Assembly (NCBI RefSeq): GCF_900609055.1
Contig: NZ_UXAW01000080.1
Span: 1 to 34,508, forward strand
Direction: 5' to 3'
Source: Pseudogemmobacter humi
GTDB lineage: Bacteria > Pseudomonadota > Alphaproteobacteria > Rhodobacterales > Rhodobacteraceae
Length of the DNA: 34,508 nt
Shown: one piece after another, positions 8,584 through 34,490 of the stretch
Position numbering within the stretch: position 1 is the first letter of the stretch
Layout: each line of letters begins with the position of its first letter
Translations under genes and position numbers: made by a program
The notes under the pieces: model-generated
Databases searched by the model: none
What the model was told of the DNA's origin: nothing
The model's input: only the letters and a program-made list of their open reading frames with translations

Positions 8584-8722
8584 TCCGCGCCTTGCGGCGC
8601 GGATGCCTCCGGCGGGGATATTTAGAGACAGAAAATGATCGAAGGCGTCTCGCCTCATTTTCTGTCTGAAAATATCCCGAGGGGTGAGCCGCCGAAGGCG
8701 GCGAGGGGGCGAGCAGCCCCCT
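8584..8722. repeat. Modular 3' element, two facing copies between serS and der
   Basis: On the minus strand, 4 nt after the der stop, comes module A (GGGGGC/GCCCCC hairpin, about 8706-8722). Module B follows (GCCGCC-TTC-GGCGGC hairpin, about 8689-8703), then a tail ending in GGGATATTTTCAGACAGAAAA (8655-8678). On the plus strand, facing it, a TCCGCGCC/GGCGCGGA hairpin (8584-8603) is followed by a near-identical tail GGGATATTTAGAGACAGAAAA (8615-8638). The two 24-nt tails are inverted repeats with 2 mismatches around a 16-nt loop that itself holds GGCG/CGCC. This suits a bidirectional terminator or stabiliser for the convergent pair. Confidence 0.8.
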
Positions 8723-15400: not shown

Positions 15401-15783
15401 TCCGAGAGCGGCAGCGCCGAACCCGTCAGCCCCGCGACCGATTTCGCCTCGGCATCGGTCGGCAGAAGGTAGTTCACCCCGTCGATCGCCACGCCATGGC
15501 CGGCGTAGAACACCAGCGCCAGATCGGCCCCCGCCCCGTCCTCGCGGAAATCCTCCAGCGCGCGGCGCATCCGCCGCAGATCGCGGTCGGTCTCGGTCCA
15601 GACCTCGAAGCCGAGGGCCTTGAGCATATCCTCCATCGCCCGGGCATCGTTCACCGGATTGGAGAGCGGGCGCAGGTGGCGGTAATCCTCGGTGGCGAGG
15701 ATCAGGGCGACGCGCTTCTCGGCCATGGCCGCGGCGGCCTGACCGAAAAGAAACACAGCGACAAAGAGAAAGCGGCGAAACAT
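12424..15783 (-). CDS. Secreted caspase-family protein with TPR-like repeat array
   Basis: With ATG at 15781-15783 this gives 1119 aa starting with a Sec signal peptide (MFRRFLFVAVFLFGQAAAAMA). Residues about 23-250 form a peptidase C14 (metacaspase/caspase-fold) domain: KRVALILATEDY, the catalytic-His strand LVFYAGHG (His96) and the catalytic-Cys strand VFLLDACRDD (Cys147), so the dyad is intact. A linker runs to about 400. From about residue 450 to the end come roughly ten degenerate TPR-like units of about 50 residues with the pattern RRDLS-S-ERIGD...GDY..A...Y...L.LRE.L...DP.N. A longer in-frame start (1163 aa) puts 44 basic residues before the signal peptide, so it was not used. Substrate and role are unknown. 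Signal peptide and repeats suggest a periplasmic protease or scaffold that binds partners through the repeats. Confidence 0.85.
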   Translation of the reverse strand: MFRRFLFVAVFLFGQAAAAMAEKRVALILATEDYRHLRPLSNPVNDARAMEDMLKALGFEVWTETDRDLRRMRRALEDFREDGAGADLALVFYAGHGVAIDGVNYLLPTDAEAKSVAGLTGSALPLSEVQETLAAVSANAVFLLDACRDDPFAGQGTPDPDGRGAVALADDPPEAAKPVPGLGRIGRADGVVFAFAAAPGETASDGTGKNSPFTAALLRHFATKGVELKSALTLVQQDVYDRSRGRQLPYIESGLPRLLYITGKGDLPERELLLLAMSEFTPELRAEVEQMAAVNDIPLAPLYRAMISGNLKSAPAEDRRGKLEEAARAYMAFQSDLMKYASDDPRVADLRAKAEELAALGSQEGARELLTEAAGIDAQARVATRETNIIRTLSEASTHIMNANVARTALRYDLAIGDLTLAAELYTGIRADLPDREAKLAYAVAMGDLGDLYQVAGNSYGALGAYLSQVDFLEAMSRAEPEDTGWQRELIWARQAVGEVMIQQGHLREAEDSYIRAYEAALALRSQAPDDTDLMREAALLSNSHGLVRYLLADYQAALVSHEEAREIFLLLLDLDPESVTALRDVSYTHERIGDVHAAMGDYESARAAFDVSLELTQRLVDRFPDDQDLRRDLSVSLERLGDMMFAEADYDTALAIYNEALRIREELAELDPGNTRRRRDSSVAWERIGDIHLGMGDVGSAMMAYQHSQGLRESLSELDPQNAVWLRDLSNSWEKFGELHMKEGDPAGALEAFGKSRELREAMVAIDPGNLPRQRDLAVAYGKMALASMGMGDYDAALALFQQALDLRRSLVESDPRVAQYRRDVAASLVDIGDLYLGLGDAATARGYLDEAIAIREALLAEMPADHLSMRELAGALNLQIGALVALNEAAAAVPLGQRSVSLMEQIAAMRPLDPLVPGERVSAANRLGQAFFAAGDLASALRAYRDMAALAYAISSEDPWSVPAARDYAFALEKAGEVLLAMQDYPAARVELEAGIALRRWIAGQVPDSPDDQRNLGYALRHLADSWYFEGNYEQGRPIEEQSLAIMRWIAGTRPEDAMNLVELADGLYRASFYYQDGSLLLQEAIGVLEALEAGGRMPDGPYRDRIALYRERLEGL

Positions 15784-15881
15784 CGCAAAGACCCGGGCTC
15801 TGCCCGCCAGTCTCGCTGCGCCGCCCGGGGGCGTCAAAGGGAAAATACCCCGCCCCCGTGCGGAGAACCCGACCTCGCAAA

Positions 15882-15994
15882 GGGGGCGCAGCCCCCTCGC
15901 GCCTGCGGCGCTCACCCCCGGGGTATTTATATCAGGATGAAAGCATACGACCCCATCCCCGCTCTTATGCTTTCACCCTGATCCAAATACCCCC
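15882..15994. repeat. Modular 3' element with long inverted repeat (copy 2)
   Basis: On the plus strand: module A GGGGGC-GCA-GCCCCC (15882-15896), module B GCGCC-TGC-GGCGC (15899-15911), then the tail GGGGTATTT...CAGGATGAAAGCATA (15920-15947). An inverted tail follows (15966-15993) with only 3 mismatches, and next to it GCCGGAGGC. The tail arms are 28 nt long with an 18-nt loop. Both neighbouring genes (caspase protein and ABC exporter) are on the minus strand, so this copy is not between convergent genes. A separate partial tail (GAAAATACCCCGCC, about 15841-15854) lies nearer the caspase gene start. Confidence 0.75.
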
Positions 15995-16185
15995 GCCGGA
16001 GGCATCCGCCGCGTTCCACAGACGACCGGTCCGGCAGGAACGCGGACTCTCACCCCCCCCTGGCGAGCGGGCGGCGCCCTTTCGGCCCCGGCCAACCGCC
16101 CGGCGAAGACGCATGCTACACCTGATCCGGATCCTTCCGCCGGACGGGATCAGGCGAGCGGACCCGCAGGCGCGGGCCCATGCCG
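15995..16185. other. Gene-free stretch with two hairpins
   Basis: This is the middle of the 454-nt gene-free region between the caspase-family gene and the ABC exporter. It holds a 9-bp inverted repeat CCGCGTTCC (16009-16017) / GGAACGCGG (16037-16045), and an 8-bp inverted repeat CCTGATCC (16121-16128) / GGATCAGG (16147-16154) around TCC/GGA. I see no convincing reading frame, RNA gene or promoter in the rest. Confidence 0.5.
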
Positions 16186-16229
16186 TTCATCCTGCCGCAA
16201 TATCCCCGCCCTCGGGCCGACGCCGGCCC
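16186..16229 (-). repeat. Modular 3' element after the ABC exporter (copy 6)
   Basis: On the minus strand, directly after the exporter stop codon, a GGGCCG/CGGCCC hairpin (16214-16229, 4-nt loop) is followed by a GGGGATATT tail, 4 nt and CAGGATGAA (16186-16206). This is module B plus tail. Module A is absent. The position right at a stop codon matches the copies after der and DUF1289. Confidence 0.65.
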
Positions 16230-16237
16230 AAGGGTGC

Positions 16238-18121
16238 TCAGGCCGCCTCTTCCTCTTCGGCGCGCTGCTGCGCCCACATCGCGGCATAGCGGGCGCTGCG
16301 GGCCAGCAACTCCTCATGGGTGCCGCTCTCGATCACCCGCCCGGCCTCCATCACCAGGATCAGATCGGCCTCGGCGATGGTCGACAGCCGGTGCGCGATG
16401 GTGATCACGCTGCGGCCCTGGCCCATTTCGCGCAGCGACTCCTGGATCGAGCGTTCGGTCTGGGTGTCGAGCGCCGAGGTCGCCTCGTCGAGAATCAGGA
16501 TCGGCGGGTTCTTCAGGATGGTGCGCGCGATTCCCACCCGCTGTTTCTCGCCGCCCGAGAGTTTCAGCCCGCGCTCGCCCACCATCGTCTCATAGCCCTC
16601 GGGCAGGCTTTCGATGAAATCGTGGATCTTCGCGGCCCGGGCGGCGGCGATGACCGCGGCATCGGTGGCATCCTCGCGGCCATAGGCGATGTTGTAGCGG
16701 ATGGTGTCGTTGAACAGCACCGTATCCTGCGGCACCACGCCGATCGCCTCATGGAGCGAGCTTTGCGTCACCTCGCGGATGTCCTGGCCGTCGATGCGGA
16801 TGCTGCCGCCGGTCACGTCGTAGAAACGGAACAACAGCCGCGCCACGGTGGATTTCCCCGAGCCGGAATGGCCGACCAGCGCCAGCGTCTGGCCCGGCTC
16901 CACCCGGAAGCTCACGCCTTTCAGGATCTCGCGCGAGGGATCGTAAGAGAAGCGCACCGCATCGAACTCGATCCCGCCGCCCTGCACAGCCAGCGGCTCT
17001 GCCCCGGGCGCGTCAGTCACTTCGGCGGGCTGCGACAAGAGGCCGAACATCTGCCCCATATCGACCAGGGCCTGGCGGATCTCGCGGTAGACGGTGCCGA
17101 GGAAGCCCAGAGGCATGGTGATCTGGATCATATAGGCGTTGACCATGACGAAATCGCCCACCGTCAGCCGCCCGGCCTGCACCCCCGCCGCCGCCATCAC
17201 CATCACCGCCACAAGGCCGAGGGTGATGATCAGCGTCTGGCCGATGTTGAGCGCCGAGAGCGAGAGCCCGGTCTTCACCGCCGCCGCCTCGTAGAGACGC
17301 ATCGCACCGTCGTAGCGCGCCGCCTCGCGCGCTTCGGCGTTGAAATATTTGACGGTTTCATAGTTCAGCAGGCTGTCGACCGCCTTCTGGTTGGCGTCGG
17401 TGTCCTGGTCGTTCATCTCCTGGCGGATCTTCACCCGCCATTCGGTGACCTTGAAGGTAAACCAGACATAGATCGCGATGGTCACCGCCACCACCGCCGC
17501 GTAACTCCAGCCGAAGGCGAAGGCGAAGATCAGCGTGATCAGCGTGAGTTCGAGGATCAGCGGCCCGATGGAAAACAGCAGGAAGCGCAGGAGGAACTCG
17601 ACCCCCTTCACGCCGCGCTCGATGATGCGCGAGAGGCCGCCGGTGCGGCGCGAGATGTGATAGCGCATGCTGAGGCGGTGGATATGGCTGAAGGTATCGA
17701 GCGCGAGGCGGCGCAGCGCGCGCTGGCCGACGCGGACGAAAACCGCATCGCGCAATTCCTGGAACGCCACCGCGCCGAGCCGGGCGAGACCATAGGCCAC
17801 CACAAGGCCGATGGCGCCGATGGCCATGACCCGCGCAGGATCGGTTGCGCCCTCGCCGGTCAGCGCATCCACCGCCAGCTTGTAGAACCAGGGCGTGATC
17901 ACCGAGACCACCTTGGCCACCATCAGGAACAGCATGGCGATCACCACGCGCCGGCGCACCCAGGCCTGGTCGCGGGGCCAGAGATGCGGCAGCACGCGGG
18001 CGATGGTCTGCCAGCCGCTGGCGGCGGGCTCGGGGCCGGGCCGCGTGGATCCGGGGGTCGATGCGGGGGGAGATTCGGGGACGGCGCCGTTCGCGGGCAG
18101 GGACTCGTCAGGGCGGGGCAT
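16238..18121 (-). CDS. Atm1/ABCB7-type ABC exporter (fused permease-ATPase)
   Basis: A 627-aa half-transporter of the Atm1/HMT1 class, working as a homodimer in the inner membrane. After a Pro-rich N-terminus (1-36) come six TM helices (about 57-345). Atm1-like markers are RRTGGLSRIIERGVKG (158-173), LLNYETVKYFNAE (251-263) and VNAYMIQITMPLGFLGTVYREIRQ (327-350). The ATPase domain has Walker A GHSGSGKST (417-425), signature LSGGEKQR (521-528), Walker B ILILDEATSALD (541-552) and H-loop AHRLS (576-580). Atm1 proteins move glutathione-based thiol compounds, and bacterial members can confer heavy-metal tolerance. It is divergent from an ArsR-family gene with a palindrome between them, so control by that regulator is likely. 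Substrate is unproven. Confidence 0.92.
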   Translation of the reverse strand: MPRPDESLPANGAVPESPPASTPGSTRPGPEPAASGWQTIARVLPHLWPRDQAWVRRRVVIAMLFLMVAKVVSVITPWFYKLAVDALTGEGATDPARVMAIGAIGLVVAYGLARLGAVAFQELRDAVFVRVGQRALRRLALDTFSHIHRLSMRYHISRRTGGLSRIIERGVKGVEFLLRFLLFSIGPLILELTLITLIFAFAFGWSYAAVVAVTIAIYVWFTFKVTEWRVKIRQEMNDQDTDANQKAVDSLLNYETVKYFNAEAREAARYDGAMRLYEAAAVKTGLSLSALNIGQTLIITLGLVAVMVMAAAGVQAGRLTVGDFVMVNAYMIQITMPLGFLGTVYREIRQALVDMGQMFGLLSQPAEVTDAPGAEPLAVQGGGIEFDAVRFSYDPSREILKGVSFRVEPGQTLALVGHSGSGKSTVARLLFRFYDVTGGSIRIDGQDIREVTQSSLHEAIGVVPQDTVLFNDTIRYNIAYGREDATDAAVIAAARAAKIHDFIESLPEGYETMVGERGLKLSGGEKQRVGIARTILKNPPILILDEATSALDTQTERSIQESLREMGQGRSVITIAHRLSTIAEADLILVMEAGRVIESGTHEELLARSARYAAMWAQQRAEEEEAA

Positions 18122-18158
18122 GAGGTTCTTTCGGAAGATGGCGGCCGGAGGGGAAGGC

Positions 18159-18187
18159 TTGCTTTCCCGGCCCGGCGGGGCTATCCA
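18159..18187 (+). promoter_or_regulatory. Candidate arsR-family gene promoter
   Basis: TTGCTT (18159-18164), a 17-nt spacer and TATCCA (18182-18187) lie just upstream of the palindromic operator candidate. Transcription would start inside that palindrome, which fits autorepression. The -10 is a weak match. Confidence 0.35.
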
Positions 18188-18190
18188 TAT

Positions 18191-18214
18191 TTCAAGAGTT
18201 CATGAATAGTTGAA
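18191..18214. promoter_or_regulatory. Palindromic operator candidate for the ArsR-type regulator
   Basis: The 24-bp dyad has the form TTCAA-N3-TTCA|TGAA-N3-TTGAA, with 9 of 12 positions symmetrical. It ends 2 nt before the regulator's ATG and overlaps its Shine-Dalgarno-like GAAGG. ArsR/SmtB repressors typically bind imperfect 12-2-12-type A/T-rich dyads in such divergent spacers. Bound protein here would block the regulator's own transcription and possibly that of the exporter, whose start lies 69 nt away. Confidence 0.7.
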
Positions 18215-18216
18215 GG

Positions 18217-18573
18217 ATGGACCGGAGTAAAGCCCTCGCCGCACTGTCCGCCCTCGCCCACGGCGACCGGCTGGACCTGGTCCGCCTGCTGTTCGCGGCC
18301 GGTGCCGGAGGCATGGCGGCGGGAGAGATCGCCCGCACGCTCGGGCTGTCGGCGTCGCGGCTGTCGTTCCATCTGGCGCAGCTGGAACAGGCGGGGCTGA
18401 TCGGCTCGCGCCGGGTCGCGCGCAACGTGATCTATGCGGTGGACGCGCAGGGCCTTGGCGCCACGATCCGTTACCTGCTGAACGACTGCTGCGGCGAGGA
18501 TCCCGAGGTGATCGCCTGCTGCCGCGGCTGCGGCGCGGGCGAAGCGGAAGCGGCGGATCGGGACCGCGGCTGA
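18217..18573 (+). CDS. ArsR/SmtB-family metal(loid)-type regulator, Cys-rich tail
   Basis: A 118-aa winged-helix repressor. The helix-turn-helix spans about residues 34-58 (AGEIARTLGLSASRLSFHLAQLEQAGL), followed by the wing (IGSRRVARNVIYAVD). The C-terminus has five cysteines, Cys91-Cys92 and Cys101-Cys102-x2-Cys105, in LLNDCCGEDPEVIACCRGC. Paired C-terminal Cys of this kind recall the As(III) site of the AfArsR-type repressors (NCC...P...C), but the gap to the third Cys is longer here. The usual alpha-3 CVC-type site is absent. It is divergent from an Atm1-type exporter with a shared operator candidate. A metalloid, heavy-metal or thiol signal is inferred, not shown. Confidence 0.85.
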   Translation: MDRSKALAALSALAHGDRLDLVRLLFAAGAGGMAAGEIARTLGLSASRLSFHLAQLEQAGLIGSRRVARNVIYAVDAQGLGATIRYLLNDCCGEDPEVIACCRGCGAGEAEAADRDRG

Positions 18574-18581
18574 CCCTGCAT

Positions 18582-18649
18582 GGGCCGCTCATCGGCCCTG
18601 ACGGGCCTCTTCGCTCAGCGATGACGCCCGTCAGGGCGGAAGAGCGCCC
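18582..18649. repeat. Long hairpin repeat, family H, copy 2
   Basis: A nested dyad matching the copy at 3-60. Outer GGGC/GCCC and GCTC/GAGC pairs flank middle arms CCCTGACGGGC (18596-18606) and GCCCGTCAGGG (18626-18636), with an inner TCGC/GCGA pair. Relative to copy 1 one base pair in the middle stem is swapped on both sides. It fills the 82-nt gap between the convergent ArsR-family and LysM genes, so it can act for both strands as a 3'-end structure. Confidence 0.75.
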
Positions 18650-18655
18650 GGCGCA

Positions 18656-20014
18656 TCAGCGTCCCGGGATGGTGAAGACCTGGCCGGGATAGATCAGATC
18701 GGGGTCTCGGATGCGGTCGCGGTTGGCCTCCCACAGCTGGACATAGAGGATCCCTTCTCCCAGTTCGCCCCGCGCGATGGCCCAGAGCGTATGGCCGGGC
18801 TGCACCGTGATCGTGACCGGCGGCCCCATCGCGGGCGCCGCGGTCGCGACAGAATCCCCGGCGGGGACGGAGAGCGTGTCCTCCACAGCGGCAGGCGGCG
18901 GCGCGATGGCCGCAATCCCTGCCCCGGTCGCGGCGGTTTCCTGCGCGGCGGGCGTCTCGTCCGTTGCGGCAGCAAGTGCCTCGGGCGTCTCGCGCCGGAA
19001 CGGGGTTTCGAACCGGCCCGTCACCTTGCCAGCCTCGTCGATCTGATCCACCCGCAAGCTATAGAGCCCCGGCGCCACGGCATCGAGCGCCGCGAGCCAT
19101 TTGCCGTCTGCCCCGACCCTCGCCTCGCCGCCCGCGGGAGCATTGTCGAGATAGAGCCGGACCCAGGCCCCCGGCGTCCCGCTGCCGCCGATCTGCACGA
19201 GGCCTGGCGCGGGATAGGTGATGGTCTCGACCGCCACCGGCAGCAGCGCAGATGCGGCCCCGTTCAGCGCGACGGCCCCCTCCTCACCGATCATCAGCGC
19301 CACGGATTTCTCCTCCGCCGCGGGCACCGCGCTGTCGGGCGGCGCATCTGCCGCTACGGTTTCGTCAGGCACGGCGGCAGCAGGCGGCGGTCCTGCGATC
19401 GGGCCGAGCGCCACCACCTGATCCGGGCGGATCCGCCGCCCGTCGGCCAGTTCCATCTCCAGCATCATCAGCGAGGGGGCGGGATCGGGCGCAAGCGTTG
19501 TGACCAGCGCGAATTCGCCGCCCGGGGTGACGGTCGTCTCCGCCACCGCGACCCCGTCGATCAGGATCCCGACCCGCGCGCCCGGCTCGCCCCGCCCGGC
19601 GATCGTGGCATGTCCCCCGGGGGTGACGAGCCAGGTGGTGATCAGCGGTCCGGCGGTCTCCGGCACAGGCTCAGCCAGGGGTTCGGGCGAAAGACCCGCT
19701 GGCAGAGGGATTTCGGCCCCCCCCGCGGCAGCCGGATCCTGCGCGGCGGGGACGGCAGGAGAAATTCCGGCTTCCGCAGCGGCGGGTGTTTCGGCCCCCG
19801 CTTCCTGCCCGGACGGCGCGGAACTGCCTTCCGGCACGGCGCCGTCCGCCGGGATTTCGGCAGCCCCCGGCGTGCCGGCAACCAGCCTCTGCGCGGGCGG
19901 ACCCTCCACAACTCCGGGCCGCAGCAACAGCCAGGCGGCCAGAACCGCCCCGGCGGCGGCCACCGCCACAATCCCCCCGCGCGCACCCGCGCCGATCGCC
20001 ATCCAGGCCCTCAT
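18656..20014 (-). CDS. LysM-domain membrane-anchored envelope protein
   Basis: Starting at ATG 20012-20014, which is preceded by a good Shine-Dalgarno (GGGGAAGG), the product is 452 aa. One TM segment (about 11-31) is followed by a long Ala/Pro/Glu-rich spacer. Two bacterial Ig-like beta domains come next (about 125-185, with [18 protein letters not shown] and WLVTPGG; and about 268-350, with [19 protein letters not shown]). A second low-complexity region leads to a C-terminal LysM motif (about 403-451: [18 protein letters not shown] ... [13 protein letters not shown]) that binds peptidoglycan. It is likely a periplasmic cell-wall-associated protein of unknown role. It converges on the ArsR-family gene and is divergent from the LOG gene. 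Confidence 0.85.
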
Positions 20015-20161
20015 CGCCTTCCCCTTTCCGGCCGGTCGCCGTCCCGGCCGGTCTTCGCCGCAGCCACCGCCAAACGCCCGGTTTCCCATCGCATCGCTGC
20101 GGCTTTTCGCTTAAGAAAACCCCGATATCGCCCCCGCTGGCAACCGAATTCAGGAGTTCCC

Positions 20162-20764
20162 ATGCAGCTTCCCTCGATCTGCGTCTTCTGCGGCTCGCGC
20201 CCCGGAACCAACCCGGCCCATGCCGCAGCCGCCCGCGCCTTCGGCGAGACCATCGCCCGCGAGGGCTGGCGGCTGGTCTACGGCGCGGGCGACGTCGGGC
20301 TGATGGGCGAGGTGGCACGCGCCGCCCAGGGCGCGGGCGCCCCCGCGCTCGGGGTGATCCCGGTGCATCTTCTGGGGCTGGAGAAAGGCAAACGCGACCT
20401 GACCACCTTCGTGATCACCGAGGACATGCACGAGCGCAAGAAGGTCATGTTCATGAACTCCGACGCGGTGGTGGTGCTGCCCGGGGGCGCGGGCAGCCTC
20501 GACGAATTCTTCGAGGTGCTGACCTGGGCGCAGATCGGGCTGCACGGCAAACCGATCTTCCTGCTGGACATCGGGGGCTACTGGCGGCCGCTGACCGCGC
20601 TGATCGACCATGTGATCGCCGAGGGCTTCGCCGCGCCCTCGCTCAATGACCTGTTCCGCAGTGTGGACAGCGTGGACGAACTGACCGCCGCGCTGCGCGA
20701 CTACCTTGCCGAAGGCCCGCAAAGCCGCTTCATCCGCCCGGTGCCGGACCAGCCCCGCGGCTGA
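20162..20764 (+). CDS. LOG-family (TIGR00730) Rossmann-fold protein
   Basis: A 200-aa protein of the LOG/TIGR00730 family, whose characterised members are cytokinin riboside 5'-monophosphate phosphoribohydrolases that cleave N-glycosidic bonds of nucleoside monophosphates. Seen are the N-terminal SICVFCGSRPG, VYGAGDVGLMGEVA (39-52), the catalytic-region ERKKVMFMNSDAVVVLPGG (91-109), and PGGAGSLDEFFE, in which Ser replaces the Thr of the usual PGGxGTxxE. The substitution is conservative and the active-site Arg and Glu are kept. The ATG is preceded by CAGGAG. The true substrate in bacteria is often unknown, so a plain nucleotide-salvage role is equally possible. Confidence 0.9.
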   Translation: MQLPSICVFCGSRPGTNPAHAAAARAFGETIAREGWRLVYGAGDVGLMGEVARAAQGAGAPALGVIPVHLLGLEKGKRDLTTFVITEDMHERKKVMFMNSDAVVVLPGGAGSLDEFFEVLTWAQIGLHGKPIFLLDIGGYWRPLTALIDHVIAEGFAAPSLNDLFRSVDSVDELTAALRDYLAEGPQSRFIRPVPDQPRG

Positions 20765-20806
20765 AGCCCCCTTTTCAGCGTCCGCTTCTTGCGGCAAGCC
20801 GGGAAA

Positions 20807-20905
20807 GGGGGCCCTGCCCCCGTCTCCTTCGGAGACTCCCCCGGGGTATTTCGGTCAGGATGAAAGAGCTTTTCATCCTGATACAAATACCCCCGCCGGA
20901 GGCGT
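20807..20905. repeat. Modular 3' element with facing tails (copy 3)
   Basis: It begins 42 nt after the LOG gene stop. Module A is GGGGGC-CCT-GCCCCC (20807-20821) and module B GTCTCC-TTC-GGAGAC (20822-20836). The tail GGGGTATTT...TCAGGATGAAA (20843-20865) is met by a facing tail (20871-20893, 3 mismatches) and a short GCC-TCC-GGC hairpin at the far side. The loop between tails is only 5 nt. It lies in the gap between the convergent LOG and TraB/GumN genes. Confidence 0.8.
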
Positions 20906-20968
20906 CCTGTGGCAGCGAGAAGCGCTCGGGCGGGCAGGAGAGCCGGCCCGCGTCACGTGCTGCCGGAG

Positions 20969-21072
20969 CTCACCTTGCCGCAAGTATCCCGCCCGGAGGC
21001 GGTGAAAGTGCGACGCAAGCCCTTTTCATCTGTCCTCAGATATTCCCGGCGCCGGACGACGGGGCGCGGCTG
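20969..21072 (-). repeat. Degraded modular 3' elements after the TraB/GumN gene
   Basis: On the minus strand right after the traB-like stop, CCGGCGCCGG is followed by GAATATCTGAGGACAGATGAA (about 21022-21058). Further along, GCCTCCGGGCGGGATACTT with GCAAGGTGA (about 20972-21003) resembles another tail. Both diverge from the other copies and look like eroded members. Together with copy 3 they fill the 308-nt gap before the LOG gene, in which I see no gene. Confidence 0.45.
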
Positions 21073-22128
21073 TCAGGGCCTCTCGCCGGGAAGCGTCACG
21101 CGCTCTGCCCGGTAGCCCGCGTCGCGCAGCATGGCCACCAGCCCCAGATCACCCGGCAGATGCGAGGCGCCGACCGCGACCAGCGCGCCGCCCTCGTCGA
21201 GCAGCGGGCGCAAAGCATCCATCCACATCGCATTGCGCTCGATCAGCAGATAGCCGTTCGCCAGCGCCTCGGTTTCGCGCCCGCGCGCCTCGCCGAGGGT
21301 GTTGCGCAGCCATTCCGAGGACCAGGCGTCGAGAAGGCCGATCCGCCCCTCGCGGTAAAGCGCGAAGCTGGTCTCGCGCACGCCCTTCTCCACCGATTCC
21401 GGCCCCAGATAAAGCGCATAGGACAGCACCGCCGCCCGCGCCGCCGCCGCGCGGTGCGGCTCGTTGAGCTGATCGCCGAATTCCCAGGGCTTTTGCAGCC
21501 CCGTCACCTGCGCACCGCCGAGCCAGGCCTGCTGCGCGATGTAATAATCCTGCCCGGGCAGAAAGCCGGACAGGTAATCCGCGCAGGGATCGGCGAGCAG
21601 CAGGCTGAGAACGCCCGCATCGGTCATCTGCGGCAGGTAATCGCGCATCCAGCCGAAGGTTTCGGCACGCTGGTAGATATAATCGCGCCAGGGCTGCGGG
21701 ATATCGGTGCGCGGATCGGGCTCGGCCGGAAAGGGCAGCCACATCCAGTTCTGGTCGTAGCTGCGGCGCAATTCCGCCGGGCTGTCGGCAAGAGGATCGA
21801 ATTCCAGCGCCACCACCCGCGCCGCGGCGATCACCTCGCGCAAGGCGTCCGGCAGATCGAGAATCGCCGGATCCGGCACGTGATACGTGCCCCAGAGATG
21901 CGACACCTCGCCCCCGGCCGCGGTGATCCGCCACAGCTTGCCGGTGCCGTTCGGTATCTGTGCCGCCGCGGCCTCCCAGCGGGCCTCGGCCCCGGGCGTC
22001 AGGATGTTGCGGTCGATCACCGCTTCGCCCACCAGGCAGGCCTCGGGGGTGAACCAGTCCTGCGCCGCCAGCGGCAGCGGGGCGCCGAGAAGCGCGGCGA
22101 GGATCGGCGCGGACAGCCGCAGGCGCAT
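21073..22128 (-). CDS. TraB/GumN-family protein
   Basis: A 351-aa secreted or periplasmic protein with a signal peptide (about 1-22, ending LPLAAQ). It has the family's N-terminal hallmark GKLWRITAAGGEVSHLWGTYHVPDP, in which GTYHVPDP (80-87) matches the GTxH motif, then a conserved Glu in VVALEFDP. The C-terminal box VAVGASHLPGDLGLVAMLRDAGYRAERV has the second G-x-x-H motif. These GTxH and G..H boxes are proposed metal-binding/protease-like sites of the TraB/Tiki fold. The bacterial role is not known. The ATG is preceded by CGGAG. Confidence 0.85.
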   Translation of the reverse strand: MRLRLSAPILAALLGAPLPLAAQDWFTPEACLVGEAVIDRNILTPGAEARWEAAAAQIPNGTGKLWRITAAGGEVSHLWGTYHVPDPAILDLPDALREVIAAARVVALEFDPLADSPAELRRSYDQNWMWLPFPAEPDPRTDIPQPWRDYIYQRAETFGWMRDYLPQMTDAGVLSLLLADPCADYLSGFLPGQDYYIAQQAWLGGAQVTGLQKPWEFGDQLNEPHRAAAARAAVLSYALYLGPESVEKGVRETSFALYREGRIGLLDAWSSEWLRNTLGEARGRETEALANGYLLIERNAMWMDALRPLLDEGGALVAVGASHLPGDLGLVAMLRDAGYRAERVTLPGERP

Positions 22129-22156
22129 CGGGAAACTCCGGCAGAGGTTAAGACAA

Positions 22157-22184
22157 GGCCCCGCGCGCCGGGGCGCACGGGGCC
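22157..22184 (-). terminator. Terminator after sodB
   Basis: A GC-rich hairpin with arms GGCCCCG (22157-22163) and CGGGGCC (22178-22184) and further GCGC pairing inside lies 37 nt beyond the sodB stop. On the minus strand it is followed by TTGTCTT, a weak U-rich tract, and it precedes the TraB/GumN gene. Confidence 0.55.
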
Positions 22185-22221
22185 GTTTTGCCCGGACCGG
22201 GCCGAAACCCGGAACCCGGCC

Positions 22222-22824
22222 TCAGAGCCGCGCGGCGACCGCTTCCCAGTTCACCAGCTTGTCGAGGAAGTTGGTCAGGTAAGCCGGGCGCTTGTTGCGG
22301 AAGTCGATGTAATAGCTGTGCTCCCAGACATCGCAGCCCAGAAGCGCGGTCTGGCCGAAGCAGAGCGGGTTCACGCCGTTCTCGGTCTTCGTGACCTTCA
22401 GGCTGCCGTCCTTGTCCTTCACGAGCCAGGCCCAGCCCGAGCCGAACTGGCCTGCGCCGGCGGCCGAGAATTCCTCTTTGAACTTGTCGACCGAACCGAA
22501 GGCCTCGGTCAGCGCCTTGTCCAGCGCGCCCGGGATCTTCTTGCCCTCGCCCGGTCCCATCACTTCCCAGAACAGGTTGTGATTCCAGTGCTGCGAGGCG
22601 TTGTTGAAGATGCCGTTTTGCGCCACGGCGCCAGCCTGATAAGTGCCCTTGACGATCTCTTCGAGGGATTTGTTCTCCCATTCGGTGCCGGCGATCAGCT
22701 TGTTGCCGTTGTCGACATAGGCCTTGTGATGCAGGTCGTGATGGTATTCCAGCGTCTCTTTCGACATGCCGAGCGGCGCGAGGGCGTCATGGGCATAGGG
22801 AAGATCGGGAAGGGTGAAAGCCAT
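22222..22824 (-). CDS. sodB: Iron-type superoxide dismutase
   Basis: This enzyme converts superoxide to hydrogen peroxide and oxygen. The ATG at 22822-22824 gives 200 aa and has a strong AGGAG upstream. The 217-aa in-frame extension lacks family similarity. Metal ligands expected from the fold are His28 (LEYHHDLHH), His82 (WNHNLFW), Asp165 and His169 (DVWEHSYY). The second-shell Gln is in the Fe-SOD position (Gln78, ASQHWNH), and the Mn-SOD position is Gly (TENGVNP), so this is the Fe or cambialistic type. No signal peptide is seen, so it is cytoplasmic. A promoter with an unusual overlapping palindrome lies upstream. Confidence 0.96.
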   Translation of the reverse strand: MAFTLPDLPYAHDALAPLGMSKETLEYHHDLHHKAYVDNGNKLIAGTEWENKSLEEIVKGTYQAGAVAQNGIFNNASQHWNHNLFWEVMGPGEGKKIPGALDKALTEAFGSVDKFKEEFSAAGAGQFGSGWAWLVKDKDGSLKVTKTENGVNPLCFGQTALLGCDVWEHSYYIDFRNKRPAYLTNFLDKLVNWEAVAARL

Positions 22825-22861
22825 CGGAAGAACTCCTGTCCGGGAATTTGCGCTACCATGG

Positions 22862-22895
22862 GAATAAGGGCTCAACCGTCGGGAAGGTCAAGCCC
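22862..22895 (-). promoter_or_regulatory. sodB promoter with overlapping palindrome
   Basis: On the minus strand a -35 TTGACC (22886-22891), an 18-nt spacer and a -10 TTATTC (22862-22867) lie about 38 nt upstream of the sodB ATG. The spacer and -35 are covered by a 28-bp dyad with arms GGGCTNNACC and GGTNNAGCCC (22868-22895) around 8 nt. A dyad filling a slightly long spacer is the layout of MerR-family-controlled promoters, but other repressors could use it. Confidence 0.5.
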
Positions 22896-22956
22896 GGCAA
22901 AGAGATGCCAGCCGCGGCGGCAGGTCCTGGCCGATGGAGCAAGGACAGGCCCGCCC

Positions 22957-22974
22957 AACCGGCGGAGCCGGCTT
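22957..22974 (-). terminator. Hairpin after the FkbM gene
   Basis: A perfect short hairpin AACCGGC-GGA-GCCGGCTT-like dyad (stem CCGGC/GCCGG extended by AA/TT) begins 10 nt after the methyltransferase stop on the minus strand. It has a 3-nt loop and no T-run. It could end the FkbM transcript before the sodB promoter. Confidence 0.45.
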
Positions 22975-22983
22975 ACGCAGGTT

Positions 22984-23859
22984 TCAAAGGGCTTTCAGCG
23001 CCTCGGGCATGGCATCGACATAGGCGGCGGGCAGGTCCCCGGCCACCCTGCCCCGGCGCACAAGCTCGTCCAGGAGATGCAGCACCAGCGAATGGCTTTG
23101 AAACACCGCCGCCGCCAGCAGCGCCAGATGCGCGATCTGATCATCGGCGAATGCGGCGATCTTCGTCAGATCGCGGATGTAAACCGCATCGCCGTCGACC
23201 AGCTGATCCGACACCCGCCGCGGCCTGAGCCGCGACTTCTGTGAATTGGCAAGCGGACGGGAGGTGCCCGAGAGGAATTTGTGCAGCGTAAAGCCCTGAC
23301 GGCGCAACTCGTTGTCCACCCCGCCCATCATCGGCTCGTTCCGGTAGAGCCGGTGATAGCGCAGCTCGACAATCACGCAGACCGCCCGCTCCAGCACCTT
23401 TTCCGCGCCGGCGAAGACGAGGTTCTCGCCGCCCTGGATGTCGATCTTCATCAGATCGAACCCGGGCAGATCCGCCAGCGCGTCGAGCGCCACCGTCTCC
23501 ATCGCGATCTCCTCCTCGACTTTGGACCATCGCGGGCCGCCGACCAGCCGCATCGCCGCGGCATCCGGCTCGAAGATCGAGGTCAGGCCCGAACTGCGGC
23601 AGATGCGCAGCGTCGCCGGGCTGCCATCGCCCACCGCATGCGGGAAATAGATCTCATCCCCGGATTTCGTTTCAAGAAGCGCTGCGAAAGCCGAGGGCTG
23701 CGGCTCGAACCCCACCACGCGGCAGTTGCCGGATTTCAGCAGATCCGCATAGGGCGGCACATTGACCGGATTGGCCCCCACGTCGACGATGGTGGTCTTG
23801 CGCGGGAAGGACAGCTCCCGCAGCAGAAATCGCACGGTTTCAGGCAGATCGCCGGGCAT
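22984..23859 (-). CDS. FkbM-family SAM-dependent methyltransferase
   Basis: A 291-aa protein with the Rossmann SAM site TTIVDVGANPVNVPPYADLL (VDVGAN at 25-30) and the acidic post-I residue in VVGFEPQPSAF (Glu52). The FkbM family's DLMKIDIQGGENLVFAGAEKVL block is followed by VCVIVELRYHRLY. FkbM proteins O-methylate sugars or polyketides, and the substrate cannot be told here. No glycan cluster surrounds it. The chosen ATG has GAGGAAACC before it, and longer in-frame extensions run through the upstream gene in another frame. The Leu/Ala-rich helical C-terminus (about 225-291) is beyond the usual catalytic core. It lies 80 nt downstream of a small secreted-protein gene. Confidence 0.85.
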   Translation of the reverse strand: MPGDLPETVRFLLRELSFPRKTTIVDVGANPVNVPPYADLLKSGNCRVVGFEPQPSAFAALLETKSGDEIYFPHAVGDGSPATLRICRSSGLTSIFEPDAAAMRLVGGPRWSKVEEEIAMETVALDALADLPGFDLMKIDIQGGENLVFAGAEKVLERAVCVIVELRYHRLYRNEPMMGGVDNELRRQGFTLHKFLSGTSRPLANSQKSRLRPRRVSDQLVDGDAVYIRDLTKIAAFADDQIAHLALLAAAVFQSHSLVLHLLDELVRRGRVAGDLPAAYVDAMPEALKAL

Positions 23860-23939
23860 GGTTTCCTCGTGCCAGGGGCGCCGGAAGACGGCGCGGAAAA
23901 CGGGCGGCGGCGCGCAGCCGCCTGCGGCGCGGGTCGCGC

Positions 23940-24362
23940 TCAGAGCTGTGCACAGGGGCCCGAGACGGTGCGGGCGGGCGGGTAATCCCAGCCATCGACC
24001 CAGCCGGTGACGGTGATGGTTTTTCCGGTCGCATCGAATCCCGCCTTGTAGGCGAAGCGGGCGGTGCGCGCGCCCTGGTGCTCGGCAAGCCTGACCTTCC
24101 AGCGCATGCCGATCACGCCGTCTTTCACCGCCAGCCTCACGGGGACGAAATCGCCGCTGATGTCGGTGATCTGCGGATCGCTGACCCAGGCCTCGCCGCG
24201 CGCGCCGTCCCACAGGATCAGCAGCGAGCCCGAGAAGAACGCGGTCTTGTCGTTGACCGGCGCAAGATCGCATTTCCACAGGCTGCCCCCTGCCAGCGCG
24301 GGCAAGGTGCAGGACAAGACGCTGGACAAGGCGAGAAGACCGGCCGCGGCAATGCGTTTCAT
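23940..24362 (-). CDS. Small secreted protein, paralogue A
   Basis: A 140-aa protein with a clear signal peptide (MKRIAAAGLLALSSVLSCTLPALA). The mature part is beta-rich: WKCDLAP, LLILWDGARGEAWVSDPQI, MRWKVRL, ARFAYKAGFDATGKTITVTGW and a final GPC. It has two cysteines outside the signal peptide (Cys31 and Cys137), which could form a disulfide. Its neighbour at 24580-24999 shares the CDL, DP-I, W-V, TG-I-V-GW--G-D and G-C landmarks in the same order and is nearly equal in length, so the two are tandem paralogues. I do not recognise a named family. The general plan (small, secreted, beta, disulfide-closed) resembles periplasmic inhibitor or binding proteins. Confidence 0.7.
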   Translation of the reverse strand: MKRIAAAGLLALSSVLSCTLPALAGGSLWKCDLAPVNDKTAFFSGSLLILWDGARGEAWVSDPQITDISGDFVPVRLAVKDGVIGMRWKVRLAEHQGARTARFAYKAGFDATGKTITVTGWVDGWDYPPARTVSGPCAQL

Positions 24363-24579
24363 GAAAGATCCCGTTCAACCTGTCAGGCCCGGCGAAACCC
24401 GCCGCACGGCACAGGAAGACAGGTTCCGCCCCCGCCCGTCAAGAGCCCCGGGACACCCCGGGGGCCGCCCCTGCACGGCCCCGGCCGCCGGTTTCACGAA
24501 TCAACGGGGGCCGTGGGGTATTCGGATCAGAAGAAGGCAGCGCGAGCCTTGTGCAGCACAGCCCGCGCCGTACGGCGGT

Positions 24580-24999
24580 TCAGCCGCCGGGCTTTTCGGC
24601 CCTGCACTGGCCATAGACCACCGTGGGGGTGTTGTCATATCCATGCGGCCAGCCCCGGACCGAAATCCGGCCGGTCTCCGGTGTCAGGCTGGCGATATAT
24701 TCGACCTTCGCCTTGCGGCTGGCCTGGGCGGGAAGATTCGCCACCGTCCAGTTCAGCGTGATCCTGTCACCCTTGCGCCCGACTTTCGCCGGAAGCGGCT
24801 CCTCGTAGATGGACGCGATCAGCGGGTCGTAAACTATAGCGACCCCCGCATCGGAATCGAGCACGATGATCAGCGGCGTCGCGCTGAAGGACGCGCCCGG
24901 CGGCGCCTTCAGATCGCAGCGAAGCACCTGCCCGTCTGCATGGGCGAAAGTCGCGACAAGCGACGCGGCAAGAAAACTGCCGAAAAAGAGATGGCGCAA
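24580..24999 (-). CDS. Small secreted protein, paralogue B (TTG start)
   Basis: The best start is TTG at 24997-24999, because a near-perfect Shine-Dalgarno GGAGG sits 6 nt upstream and the product then opens with a signal peptide (RHLFFGSFLAASLVATFAHA). The in-frame ATG 11 codons earlier lacks this. The product is 139 aa, matching paralogue A (140 aa). The mature part has LRCDLKAP, LIIVLDSDAGVAIVYDPLI, ITLNWTVANL, AKVEYIASLTPETGRISVRGW and a final YGQC, with cysteines 28 and 132 in the same places as in A. Function is unknown. The 217-nt gap to paralogue A has only a weak trace of a modular-element tail (about 24511-24536). Confidence 0.7.
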   Translation of the reverse strand: MRHLFFGSFLAASLVATFAHADGQVLRCDLKAPPGASFSATPLIIVLDSDAGVAIVYDPLIASIYEEPLPAKVGRKGDRITLNWTVANLPAQASRKAKVEYIASLTPETGRISVRGWPHGYDNTPTVVYGQCRAEKPGG

Positions 25000-25024
25000 A
25001 ATATCCTCCGGGGAATCGCAGTGA

Positions 25025-25040
25025 CAGAACAATCGTTCTG
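25025..25040. promoter_or_regulatory. Small perfect hairpin upstream of paralogue B
   Basis: CAGAAC (25025-25030) and GTTCTG (25035-25040) form a 6-bp inverted repeat around 4 nt, 26 nt upstream of the TTG start on the minus strand and downstream of soxG. It could be an operator or a transcript-end hairpin. Confidence 0.3.
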
Positions 25041-25095
25041 CCGATCTGAAACCGGCCGGCGCGCCGTGGCAAGCCCGCCGGGCCGATTTTTGCGC

Positions 25096-25641
25096 TCAGA
25101 TCTCGCTGCCCGGCAGTGCGGAATGGGTCAAAAGGCCCATCACATAGCCCGCGACCGAGCGGAAGCAGACGACGGTATAGCCGCCCTCGCCCGCCCAGAA
25201 CGCCGCCGCCACCTGGCCAAGGCGCGAGCGGCGCAGCTCTTCCCCCACCGTATCCATATCGGCGGGCGAGAGCTTGCGCAGCACCTGGTCGGCCTTTTCG
25301 CCCTCGATGCGGAACACCGCGCGGGCGTCCGAGACATCGGCGGCAAGGTGATGGGTGCCCGCAAGCCCGCCTTCCAGCGCCGCCATCGCGGCCGCAACGC
25401 CGTGATAGGGCAGGATCAGCAGATATTCGTCCGGGCTCATCCAGCCGCAGCTCATGCCGCCCTGATGGGTGATCCGGCGCGGCTGCGGCAGATCGCAGCC
25501 GCTGGCCGCCTTCACCGCTTCCGCAAGCCCCGGAGTGCCGGGTTTCGCGCGCAGGGTGATCATGCCGACCGGGCCGATCTCGCGCACACGGACGAAGCCC
25601 TCGCTCTGGGCGCCGTTCAGCGCCGCAACCGGATCAGACAT
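25096..25641 (-). CDS. soxG: Sarcosine oxidase gamma subunit
   Basis: The gamma subunit of heterotetrameric sarcosine oxidase, a small subunit related to part of the GcvT/aminomethyltransferase fold. The ATG at 25639-25641 gives 181 aa (MSDPVAALNGAQSEGFV...). Family-like segments include VGMITLRAKPG, CGWMSPDEYLLIL (103-115 region), the DVSDARAVFRIEGEKADQVLRKLSPADM block and FRSVAGYVMGLLTHSALPGSEI at the end. Its start overlaps the end of soxA by 8 nt, so the two are translationally coupled. It is the last gene of the operon. Confidence 0.93.
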   Translation of the reverse strand: MSDPVAALNGAQSEGFVRVREIGPVGMITLRAKPGTPGLAEAVKAASGCDLPQPRRITHQGGMSCGWMSPDEYLLILPYHGVAAAMAALEGGLAGTHHLAADVSDARAVFRIEGEKADQVLRKLSPADMDTVGEELRRSRLGQVAAAFWAGEGGYTVVCFRSVAGYVMGLLTHSALPGSEI

Positions 25642-28600
25642 TCTGTTTCTCCCCTTCCGGGTCATAGAAGACCGGGCTGACGACTTTGGCCGAAACACCG
25701 GCGCCGCCGCTGGCCGAGGTGAACTCCACCACCTCGCCCATCCGCGCCGGGCCGTTCTTCAGGAGGCCCATGGCGATGCCGCGCTTCAGCGTGGGCGAGT
25801 AATAGGTCGAGGTGATCCGGCCCTGGGCATTGCGGAAGCCGTATTCGTTGCTGCCCGGCGCGGTGACATAGGCGCCATCCGGGATCACCGATCCGTCCAG
25901 TGCCTCGAAGCCGACCAGTTTCCAGCGATCATTCGAGGCAAGGAAGCTCCGCTGCTGGCCGCGTTTGCCGAGGAAGTCTTCCTTCTTCTTCGACACCGCC
26001 CAGTCGAGGTTCAGGTCCTGCGGGATCACCGTGCCGTCGGTCTCGTCACCGATCATGATGAAGCCCTTTTCGGCGCGCAGCACGTGCAGCCCCTCGGTGC
26101 CGTAGGGCATGGCACCAAGATCGGCGCCGAGCCGGTGGCAGAGCTCCCAGAAGGCCGCGCCATGGCTCGCGGGAACCGCGATCTCGTAGCTGAGCTCACC
26201 CGAGAAGCTGATCCGGTGCACCCGGACCGGGAAGCCGCCAAGCGTGCCCTCGGCGAAAGTCATGAAGGGGATCGCCTCTTTCGAGACATCCATCCCGCCC
26301 ATCTTCTCCAGCAGTTTGCGCGCATTCGGGCCGACCACGGCGACCTGGGCATATTGCTCGGTCAGATTGGCGGTATAGACCTGCCAGTCCCACCATTCGC
26401 ATTGCAGCCAGTCTTCCATCCAGCCGTGGATCCGGTCCGCGCCGCCCGAGGTGGTGTGGCAGAGCCAGGAATCCTCGGTCAGCCGCACCACCACACCGTC
26501 GTCGGACAGGAAGCCCTGTTCGTTGCACATCAGGCCATAGCGGCATTTGCCGATCGGCAGGCTGCTCATGACGTTGGTGTAGAGCATGTCGAGGAATTTC
26601 CCCGCATCCGGCCCTTTGACGAGGATCTTGCCCAGCGTCGAGGCGTCGAGGATGCCGAGCCGCTCGCGGGTGTTCGTCACCTCGCGGTTGACGGCCTGTT
26701 CATGGGTCTCCCCGGCGCGCGGATAGCAATAGGGGCGCTGCCAGAGGCCGACGGGCTCCATATAGGCGCCCTGCGACAGGTGCCAGTCGTGCATCGGCGT
26801 GCGGCGCAGGGGCTGGAAGATGTCGCCCCTCGCCTCGCCCGCCAGCGCGCCGATGGTGACGGGCGTATAGGGCGGGCGGAAGGTGGTGGTGCCGACCGCG
26901 GGAATATCCGCGCCAAGCGCGCCCGACAGCACGGCAAGGCCGTTGATGTTCGACAGTTTCCCCTGATCGGTCGCCATGCCGAGCGTGGTGTAACGCTTGG
27001 TATGTTCGACCGAGACATAGCCCTCGCGCGCGGCGAGCTGCACGTCCGAGACCTTCACGTCGTTCTGCCAGTCGAGCCACATCTTCGACTTCAGCGCGGG
27101 CCCCGCCCCTTCGGGCATGATCCAGACCGGCAGAAGATCACCCTCTGCCACGCTGTCGGCCTGCGCCGCAGCCACAGAAGGCGCCTCACGGCCAAGCGCG
27201 GCCAGCGCCGCGCCGGCGGCCTCGGCCGCGTCGGAGAGCGCATCGGCGGCAGCCAGCGCGCCGTTCGCGGCCCCGGCCGGGTAAACCATGGCGGTGCCGT
27301 CCAGCGTCAGCGGCGGGCGGTTCCTGTCGGGGCGGAACATGGCTGCCTTGCGGTCCCAGTCCAGCTTGCCGCCGCAATGGCTCCACAGATGGACCACCGG
27401 CGACCAGCCGCCGGACATGGCGACCGCATCGCAGGCGATCTCTTCCAGCGCGGCGCCCTCGCCGGTGACGAGGCCGATGGCGACGCCGGTGACGAATTTC
27501 TTCCCCTTGACCTTGACCACGCCGCGGCCGGTTTCGACCCGGATCCCCATGGCGCGCACCCGCTCGGGCAATTCGCCGGTGACCTGGGCGCGGGCGTCGA
27601 TCACAGCGGCGACCACCAGCCCGGCCTCTTTCAGCGCGATGGCGGTGCGGTAGGCGTCGTCATTGTTGGTGACGACCACGGTACGGTCACCCGGCGAGAC
27701 GGCGAAATTCACCACGTAATCGCGCATGGCCGAGGCCAGCATGACGCCCGGGATGTCGTTCCCGGCAAAGGACAGCGGCCGTTCCAGCGCCCCGGTGGCC
27801 GAGACGATACGGCCCGCGCGGATGCGCCAGAGGCGTTTGCGCGGACGGCCATCGCCCGGGGTGTGATCGGCGATACGTTCCTCGGCCAGCACATAGCCGT
27901 GGTCGTAGACGCCCGAAACCATGGTGCGGGCGCGAAGCGTGACATTCTTCATGCCATCAAGGGCTTGCAGCGCGGATTTCACCCAGTCATCCGCGGATTT
28001 TCCGTCGATGACATCGCCATCGACCGGCGCGCGGCCGCCCCAGTGCGGGGTCTGTTCCAGCACCAGAACCCTCAACCCGGAGGCCCCGGCGACCAGCGCC
28101 GCCTGAAGCCCGGCGATGCCGCCCCCGGCGATCAGCACGTCGCAATGGCCGTAGGTGTATTCGTAGCGGTCGGCATCCGGCTCGGTCGGCGCCTTTCCGA
28201 GGCCTGCCGAGCGGCGGATGATCGGCTCGAACAGATGTTTCCAGGCCGGGCGCGGATGGATGAAGGTCTTGTAGTAGAAGCCCGCCGGCAGGAAGCGGTA
28301 GAGCTTGTCATTCACCGCCCCGATGTCGAATTCGAGGCTGGGCCAGTGGTTCTGGCTGGTCGAGGTCAGCCCGTCGAACAGTTCCGTCGTGGTGACGCGC
28401 TGGTTCGGCTCGAACCGCGCGCCTTCGCCAAGCCCCACCAGAGCGTTCGGCTCTTCCGGCCCCGAGGCCATGATGCCGCGCGGGCGGTGGTATTTGAACG
28501 ACCGCCCCACCAGGGTCTGGCCGTTCGCCAAGAGCGCCGAGGCGAGCGTGTCGCCGCGGCAGCCCCGCATCCTCTTGCCGTTGAAGGTGAATTCAACCCC

Positions 28601-28968: not shown

Positions 28969-28985
28969 GCGGGCCTCGCAACGGC

Positions 28986-29015
28986 AAAAAGCCAGGGGGC
29001 GCAAAGCCCCCCGGC
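28986..29015 (-). terminator. Intrinsic terminator inside the sox operon
   Basis: Minus strand: a GC-rich stem GGC-c-GGGGGC / GCCCCC-t-GGC with a 5-nt loop (28991-29015) runs straight into TTTTT (28986-28990). This is the most classical Rho-independent terminator in the window. It lies between the proline-rich gene (stop at 29053) and soxD (start at 28968), leaving only 17 nt before the soxD ATG. Confidence 0.7.
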
Positions 29016-29052
29016 CAGCAGGTCAGGGAAAGATGTGACGGTCTGCGCGCGG

Positions 29053-29367: not shown

Positions 29368-29517
29368 TGGATCGTCTCCGTTCCTGTTGCGGACGGAGGA
29401 GAAACCACGGCAGGCCGGCACAGGTTCCGGCTGTCCTGGCCAGCGGCCAGGTTTCGCCGGTTCGCCGCCGGTCCCTGCGCGAAATCCCGCGCGGACCGCG
29501 GCCCACCCGCGGCGCGG

Positions 29518-33061: not shown

Positions 33062-33120
33062 GGGGGCCAGCCCCCGTCGCGTTCCGCGACTCCCCCGGGA
33101 TATTTTCAGACAGAAAATGG
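33062..33120 (+). repeat. One-sided modular 3' element (copy 4)
   Basis: Module A is GGGGGC-CA-GCCCCC (33062-33075), module B GTCGCG-TTC-CGCGAC (33076-33090), and the tail CCCCCGGGATATTTTCAGAC runs on into AGAAAATGG (33092-33120). There is no facing tail. Straight after it the base composition drops, so the copy marks the end of the GC-rich core before the mobile segment. Confidence 0.8.
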
Positions 33121-34487: not shown

Positions 34488-34490
34488 GGA

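Follow-up and report, generated by a model that had tools for sequence, protein, structure and literature searches.

The DNA analysed here, a window of 34,508 nucleotides from Pseudogemmobacter humi, carries at five places the halves of a single inverted element, in which a type I half faces a type II half across a palindrome. The element has a defined anatomy, lies at gene ends, keeps its stems paired, occurs throughout the order Rhodobacterales and bears different words at conserved sites of close relatives; it is apparently a gene-end element that is order-wide in Rhodobacterales and so far undescribed. We lean slightly towards the view that it represents a REP/BIME-like family that occupies the niche of a 3'-end RNA hairpin and is homogenised by a putative copying process.

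Structure of the element

Copies were defined by sequence patterns and by orthologous alignments. In the type I half, hairpin A (GGGGGC-N-GCCCCC) is followed by a variable hairpin B and by CCCCCGGGRTATTT, and the type II half consists of GCCTCCGGCGGGGRTATTT, often with its own hairpin 5' of it. Both half-types continue with 2-5 free bases and a tail word, and the palindrome between facing halves ends in a short tip word. Two tail words are in use: the first, GACAGAAAATG, is preceded by GGATATTT in 19 of 19 listed halves, and the second, TCAGGRTGAA, mostly by GGGTATTT. The copies of the window are the following.

20807..20821 (plus strand): hairpin A of a type I half, GGGGGCCCTGCCCCC; from sequence and fold
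20822..20836 (plus strand): hairpin B, GTCTCC-TTC-GGAGAC; from sequence, stem analysis and fold
20838..20851 (plus strand): type I core, CCCCCGGGGTATTT; from sequence
20855..20866 (plus strand): tail word TCAGGATGAAAG, this genome's own form of word 2; from sequence and word counts
20869..20903 (minus strand): type II half with word, TATTT core and GCCTCCGGCGGGGG, palindromic partner of the plus-strand half; from sequence and fold
8584..8637 (plus strand): type II half with variable hairpin, GCCTCCGGC, core GGGGATATTT and word GACAGAAAATG, downstream of serS
8655..8722 (minus strand): type I half with A, B (GCCGCC-TTC-GGCGGC), a core with one change and word, off the 3' end of der
15882..15943 (plus strand): type I half with A, B (GCGCC-TGC-GGCGC), CCCCCGGGGTATTT and word TCAGGATGAAAG
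15970..16003 (minus strand): type II half facing 15882..15943, with GCCTCCGGCGGGGGTATTT and word TCAGGGTGAAAG
16186..16229 (minus strand): decayed half with hairpin, GGGGATATTG and CGGCAGGATGAAC, directly after the stop of an ABC transporter gene
33062..33119 (plus strand): single type I half with A, B (GTCGCG-TTC-CGCGAC), CCCCCGGGATATTT and word GACAGAAAATG

At the first of these places, CGG separates the core, which ends at 20851, from the tail word TCAGGATGAAAG. The stretches 8584-8722 and 15882-16003 are complete inverted pairs, the plus-strand half at 15882..15943 being antisense to both neighbouring genes, and the half at 33062 lies 9 nt past the stop of a gene called at 32813-33052. A sequence-only reading of the window had seen one ordered plan of hairpins and tail shared by five places, and this description stands except at 16186-16229, which follows the plan only in part: TATTG replaces TATTT there, with the hairpin still present. 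The same reading reported no T-run, and indeed none longer than four T occurs in the window copies. Folding of 20807-20903 yields A and B, then a long hairpin in the centre and a small one at the end, and for 20803-20907 none of 200 shuffles was as stable (z = -5.1). The fold of 33060-33119 is less extreme (z = -2.4; 5 of 200 shuffles as stable), and this half prefers an alternative in which the C run of the core pairs with the 5' arm of A. An Rfam scan of the window gave a tRNA as its sole match above the gathering score and none at the element.

The own-genome sample comprised 823,685 bases (about 824 kb), made up of the window and 40 stretches from five contigs. Within it, 59 GGGRTATTT sites were listed, nearly all of them inside one composite element, and a relaxed definition yielded 56 halves, 31 of type I and 25 of type II. 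The element is present both as inverted I/II' pairs and as single halves; wherever facing halves lie less than 100 nt apart, type I is joined with II' (11 of 11 in a manual tally of the 824 kb). Over the own genome, exact CCCCCGGGRTATTT occurs 76 times vs 0 for the reversed pattern, and word-bearing halves number 273.

Two further observations concern the same DNA. A second repeat, CCTCTTCGC..GCGATGACGCCYGTNAGGGCGGAAGAGCG, is found in the window at 33-67 and 18618-18652 and on own contigs C117 (65431), C84 (110410) and C81 (49955); these five, of which three lie between convergent genes, are the copies in the 824 kb, to which one partial match is added, and the two hairpins of the repeat show matching changes (TGAC/GTCA, TTAC/GTAA, TCAC/GTGA). 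In addition, window positions 12424-15726 encode a large protein with a sub-cut-off match to an EACC1-type caspase domain.

Position at gene ends and relation to terminators

Genes were called with a simple codon-model caller of our own, which is unpublished. By these calls, none of the 56 halves in 824 kb lies inside a gene, and the 55 with neighbours on both sides occupy 21 convergent, 33 tandem and 1 divergent gap, where gaps above 40 nt were available as 76 convergent, 256 tandem and 104 divergent (436 in total) and the halves of a pair are non-independent. Copies had been thought to start shortly after stop codons, and hairpin A does begin 0-78 nt past the stop, with a median of 15, in the 20 type I halves that have a same-strand gene upstream; in a 21st such half the pattern used recognised no hairpin A. 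In five own-genome halves (C101 23823, C117 98914, C117 110425, C84 148091 and C84 171764) the word reaches the stop codon of the opposing gene or comes within a few bases of it, the element thereby filling the gap. The distribution along the chromosome is uneven, in that own contig C101 has about 230 kb (24-253 kb) without a word-bearing copy between flanks rich in copies. This stretch was considered as a genomic island, a reading that its ordinary base composition and its core genes (sucC, malate synthase) do not support. On contig C2 of a relative (G004; genomes of the genus are numbered G000, the own genome, to G012), the interval from about 86 kb to 1.02 Mb likewise holds only a handful of elements, which are denser on either side.

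Termination had been among the functions proposed for the element, and for this role the indirect evidence is divided. The own genome speaks for it, since a T-run terminator stands at 1 of 54 element-bearing gene ends vs 38 of 311 others. However, this exclusion is absent in five relatives (7 of 40 element-bearing ends vs 55 of 383 others) and reversed at the convergent ends of G004 (2 of 8 with the element vs 0 of 30 others, p = 0.040), and exclusion of canonical terminators as a property of the element was rejected as confined to the own genome. By eye, an ordinary hairpin and T-run stand at several orthologous gene ends that lack the element. A loose terminator scan of 15000-34508 returned 20 sites vs 11.4 in shuffles and picked out the type II core at 20903-20889 (minus strand) and 15865-15848 beside an element; because it flags that core, weak intrinsic termination may take place at type II halves. 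Hairpins placed right after the stop codon could form a stable 3' structure in the transcript, which may protect mRNA ends and/or aid the end of transcription, in both directions at convergent pairs, and such a role would keep copies at gene ends and maintain their stems. We infer that a 3'-end RNA role of this kind, whether in termination or stabilisation, is slightly more likely than not. An element that defined mRNA 3' ends would go some way to accounting for the ends of G+C-rich genes that lack a T-run terminator.

Pairing of the stems

Hairpin A is present in 64 of 65 distinct type I upstream stretches from all genomes sampled, and 51 of these 64 have a B segment of at least 10 nt, the other 13 having none. 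A stem of 5 bp or more without mismatch forms in 44 of the 51 B segments, and the 5' stem strands of the 51 copies comprise 33 different sequences; the copies are partly orthologous and to that extent non-independent; the statement that B stems are unlike yet pair is thus upheld. Base shuffles are outdone by 41 of 51 segments at 5% and by 29 of 51 at 1%. Since B stems close on a triloop, a reading of the loop as a UNCG tetraloop was dropped. The loops are mostly TTC (15), TGC (11) and TTT (5), and among the 12 commonest loops listed the only reverse type is AAA (3). At orthologous loci of G001, G007 and G012, 32 hairpin comparisons with 217 pairs, partly overlapping because some loci enter in either direction or with several genome pairs, gave double compensatory changes at three loci (CG to TA, GC to TA and CG to GC), two in type I B stems (G012/G007) and one in the hairpin at the serS end (G007/G001). 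Single-sided breaks in otherwise intact hairpins are equal in number to these double changes (three); two more breaks are at stem ends, and one decayed copy holds three single-sided breaks and two G-T pairs.

Compensation in the stems is therefore real, as seen both in pairing across copies and in double changes at orthologous loci. However, quasipalindrome (palindrome-templated) correction of DNA can create compensatory changes as well. The earlier conclusion that the stems reflect selection on RNA structure went too far, because correction at the DNA level predicts the same outcome, and the strand energies conflict: over 45 distinct B segments, the sense strand is preferred 21 to 8 by RNA energies, whereas DNA energies prefer the opposite strand 29 to 3. 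The asymmetry of the B loop is ambiguous, fitting RNA and DNA about equally. It had also been laid down beforehand that the element would be only a mobile or neutral repeat if copies showed no bias to gene 3' ends and the B stems no excess of compensatory changes. The proposal survived on both counts, because the bias and the compensatory pairing were both found; nevertheless, the bias by itself leaves a mobile repeat standing, since REP-type repeats share it.

Distribution

The CCCCCGGGRTATTT core occurs in 267 of 390 Rhodobacterales genomes and 113 of 139 genera, with a control of 0 in every row, at patchy counts that range from 0 to 91 copies in a genome. All 12 other members of the genus that were sampled have it, as do 20 of 40 genomes in a mixed sample (own genome included), where the sole match outside the family is a stray without the element. 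Elements with other words are found in Pseudotabrizicola, Gemmobacter, Defluviimonas and Sinirhodobacter, among others. In the surroundings of der, 16 of 80 loci have at least one match to a loose pattern, a few of these being coding by eye. Among 72,556 plasmid records, 9 matched (E up to 0.01), on Paracoccus and Antarctobacter plasmids. Of three plasmid records inspected for their annotation, two are almost unannotated, and in the third the Antarctobacter copy lies between two same-strand genes, close to the 3' end of one; no match was found among 50,697 phage records. None of the titles and abstracts listed from open-licence PMC papers describes the element. Rhodobacterales are well studied, and an apparently undescribed element is thus carried by Rhodobacter, by Paracoccus and by a relative of the roseobacters, among others.

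Species dialects of the tail words

Word 1 was counted in 13 genomes of the genus with TATTTN{3,6}CAGAAAATG and TATTTN{3,6}CAGATGAA. The resulting AAAATG/ATGAA counts are 101/0 in G000, 97/5 in G001, 9/35 in G002, 7/37 in G003, 0/128 in G004, 2/61 in G005, 42/7 in G006, 2/121 in G007, 0/71 in G008, 0/36 in G009, 0/3 in G010, 11/38 in G011 and 27/101 in G012, with reversed controls of 0 save one match in G006 for the second form. The dominant form makes up 78-100% of the two in the 12 genomes with more than 10 copies, and the minor form exceeds 10% in 5 of 13 (G002, G003, G006, G011 and G012). The second word, as CAGGRTGAA, is found 172 times in the own genome and 0 to 2 times in each of the other 12, and CAAGAGGAA occurs once in the own genome, 94 times in G004, 83 in G001, 59 in G010, 16 in G012 and 0 to 13 in the others. 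There is, then, one dominant tip word per species, and it is unlike between close relatives, which suggests that many scattered copies have been rewritten together.

The two words differ in how strictly they are bound to the element. Over the 824 kb, all 20 copies of word 1 lie within it, behind TATTT, and none is free. Word 2, taken as a 10-mer, is free in 22 of 62 cases vs about 1.2 expected from composition; 15 of these 22 are in genes, without a core, and 7 are intergenic, 3 of the 7 beside a partner word. In its longer form, CAGGRTGAAAG, it is free in only 3 of 33. The genic copies of free word 2 may be plain codon usage, as the opposite strand reads TTC AYC CTG.

Different words at conserved sites

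Among G001, G007 and G012, median protein identity is 96.8-98.0%, and G001 and G012 share about 95% nucleotide identity. A different word was seen in G001 at three loci, one single half and two pairs, in a comparison from which several rows were left out as coding matches. The core and outer hairpins are retained at these loci, the spacers are retained at some arms and altered at others, and in both pairs the loop is unlike too. First-word loci that are unchanged in G001 (38002, 95843 and 126880) have a changed core or an atypical context, and second-word loci vary. From the AAAATG copies of G012, 26 of 27 halves at 22 loci were taken, of which 10 could be aligned to G007 and 12 had no usable counterpart. 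The word differs at eight of these loci (L243, L244, L245, L246, L247, L253, L260 and L261), a rate biased by the choice of G007 stretches near ATGAA copies. At L254 the AAAATG word is common to G012 and a decayed G007 copy, and at L259 the G007 copy is decayed. Where G007 and G012 have the same word, as in three pairs, the loops are nearly identical; in the close pairs whose words are unlike, so are the loops. Flank identity at the eight changed loci is 90.7-95.1% against a background of 89.5-95.5%, and local import of foreign DNA was rejected as the cause of word change on account of these ordinary flanks. Import from a G001-like strain may nonetheless lie behind it.

The serS/der pair is kept over genus-level divergence, and a half whose spacer is the uncommon ATAG stands before one gene start that is common to G000, G007 and G012. 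Copies can also be missing. In the serS/der gap, where G007 and G012 carry the element, contig C108 of G001 holds some 600 nt of different DNA, with vestiges of the two halves at either end of it. At G001 C31:46132 two stop codons are 65 nt apart, whereas in G007 and G012 they directly adjoin (TGATCA); this one empty site shows no clear target duplication.

A model of spread and homogenisation and its alternatives

These data allow the construction of a model in which a family of REP/BIME type has settled in the 3'-end hairpin niche. A copying or repair process would act on the hairpin tip, by ectopic conversion or by recombination between copies, and such homogenisation of the tip, proceeding without a RAYT transposase, would leave the majority of copies in a genome with the same word. 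Homogenisation by copying or repair at the tip would account for the dialects. A copying enzyme was sought as PF01797 (Y1_Tnp, the RAYT domain), with none found in the 13 genus genomes; 6 of 40 relatives matched, none of them in the genus, and the controls of this search matched in 5 of 14 named genomes. REPs with a cognate RAYT were therefore rejected for the genus, and something else must spread or homogenise the repeats. Conversion itself meets a difficulty. Among 58 sampled flanks, only one exact duplicate was found (two C84 loci), the other long matches being mostly the partner word by eye, and shared loops thus give no demonstration of ectopic gene conversion. Copies that agree in word but each have a loop of their own argue against simple conversion, because converted copies should share their loops, and this is the most puzzling point of the analysis. 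Also weighing against the model are the single-sided stem breaks, as many as the double changes, the five genomes with a minor word form above 10%, the 230 kb with core genes but no word-bearing copy, and the terminator result of G004.

An unlikely extension of the model is that of genome-wide rewriting, in which a putative factor replaces word and loop at about 100 sites and the dialect is a species-specific 3'-end signal read in trans. Were this true, a species would change its dialect within a few per cent of divergence, its outer hairpins and positions persisting. A word change at about 95% nucleotide identity makes the concerted evolution of dispersed repeats directly testable.

We hold it improbable that the element is a true 3'-end RNA element, acting as a terminator or processing site, with a trans-acting factor that recognises its tip word; as the factor changes, selection would rewrite the word of each functional copy. 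The tip word is kept even in single halves, where its pairing partner is absent, and the spacers of the two arms are often unlike each other while their words agree, both of which fit such a factor, as does the persistence of the serS/der and ATAG sites over genus-level divergence. Further, the G001 copies with a switched word have an intact core, and the three unswitched ones are without an intact core or the usual context. However, a near-complete change at about 100 sites between genomes as close as G001 and G012 is fast for site-by-site selection, selection on the word leaves the difference in loops unexplained, and no candidate factor was found.

Doubtful, too, is a neutral or selfish MITE-like repeat that tolerates only gaps downstream of genes, its stems persisting as palindromes in the DNA through quasipalindrome correction or a putative transposase. 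The presence/absence difference at the 65-nt site of G001, the patchy core counts across the order and the common loop TTC, which reads GAA on the other strand, the one that DNA folding parameters favour (29 vs 3), would all suit a repeat of this kind. However, the avoidance of divergent gaps (1 of 55) exceeds what avoidance of genes alone predicts, the one empty site shows no evident target duplication, a modular build with variable hairpins and half-elements is not that of a MITE, and a Y1 transposase, the only type covered by the search, is absent from 13 of 13 genus genomes. A DNA uptake sequence (DUS) system, in which gene ends carry inverted pairs of a species-specific word as they do in Neisseriaceae, is very improbable: species dialects of a short word and inverted pairs are common to DUS and the element, and word 2 as a 10-mer is free in 22 of 62 cases, also in genes, but in the 824 kb word 1 was not found free and the element has no copies in genes, its conserved unit is long and composite, and genic word 2 lacks the core, is rarely free in its longer form and possibly reflects codon usage.

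Comparison with known systems

Intrinsic terminators resemble the element in having a G+C-rich hairpin shortly past the stop codon, and the loose scan flags the type II core at 20903-20889 as terminator-like; unlike them, it has TATTT in place of a real U-tract and extra conserved sequence beyond. The Rhodobacterales motifs HRC-8-4, uORFC-8-2 and SAM/SAH are tied to ccoP/ccoG, cysS and metK (PMC8632094, PMC2864571), and although they share the order, each belongs to one gene or operon and none is a dispersed gene-end repeat. For the DUS of Neisseriaceae and Pasteurellaceae, dialects between relatives and inverted pairs at terminators are described (PMC3630211), features that recur here as species dialects and inverted pairs linked to gene ends, whereas in the 824 kb word 1 of the element was not found free and genes contain no copies, and the build is composite. 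The closest likeness is to the REP/BIME (PU) sequences of enterobacteria and pseudomonads, short palindromic repeats between genes that number more than 100 per genome, occur singly or as inverted pairs of two types and are of species-typical sequence. In E. coli, REP comprises two unit types, Y and Z. The element similarly consists of intergenic palindromes in dozens to hundreds per genome (76 exact cores) that form inverted pairs of two unit types (11 of 11). REPs with a RAYT have a GTAG/GTGG-type 5' tetranucleotide (PMC2817692), and no such tetranucleotide was seen by eye in the printed copies of the element. The element thus differs from REP/BIME in being without a GTAG-type foot and without a Y1/RAYT gene in the genus, and in having consecutive hairpins, of which B is variable, together with a separate tip word that differs at conserved sites.
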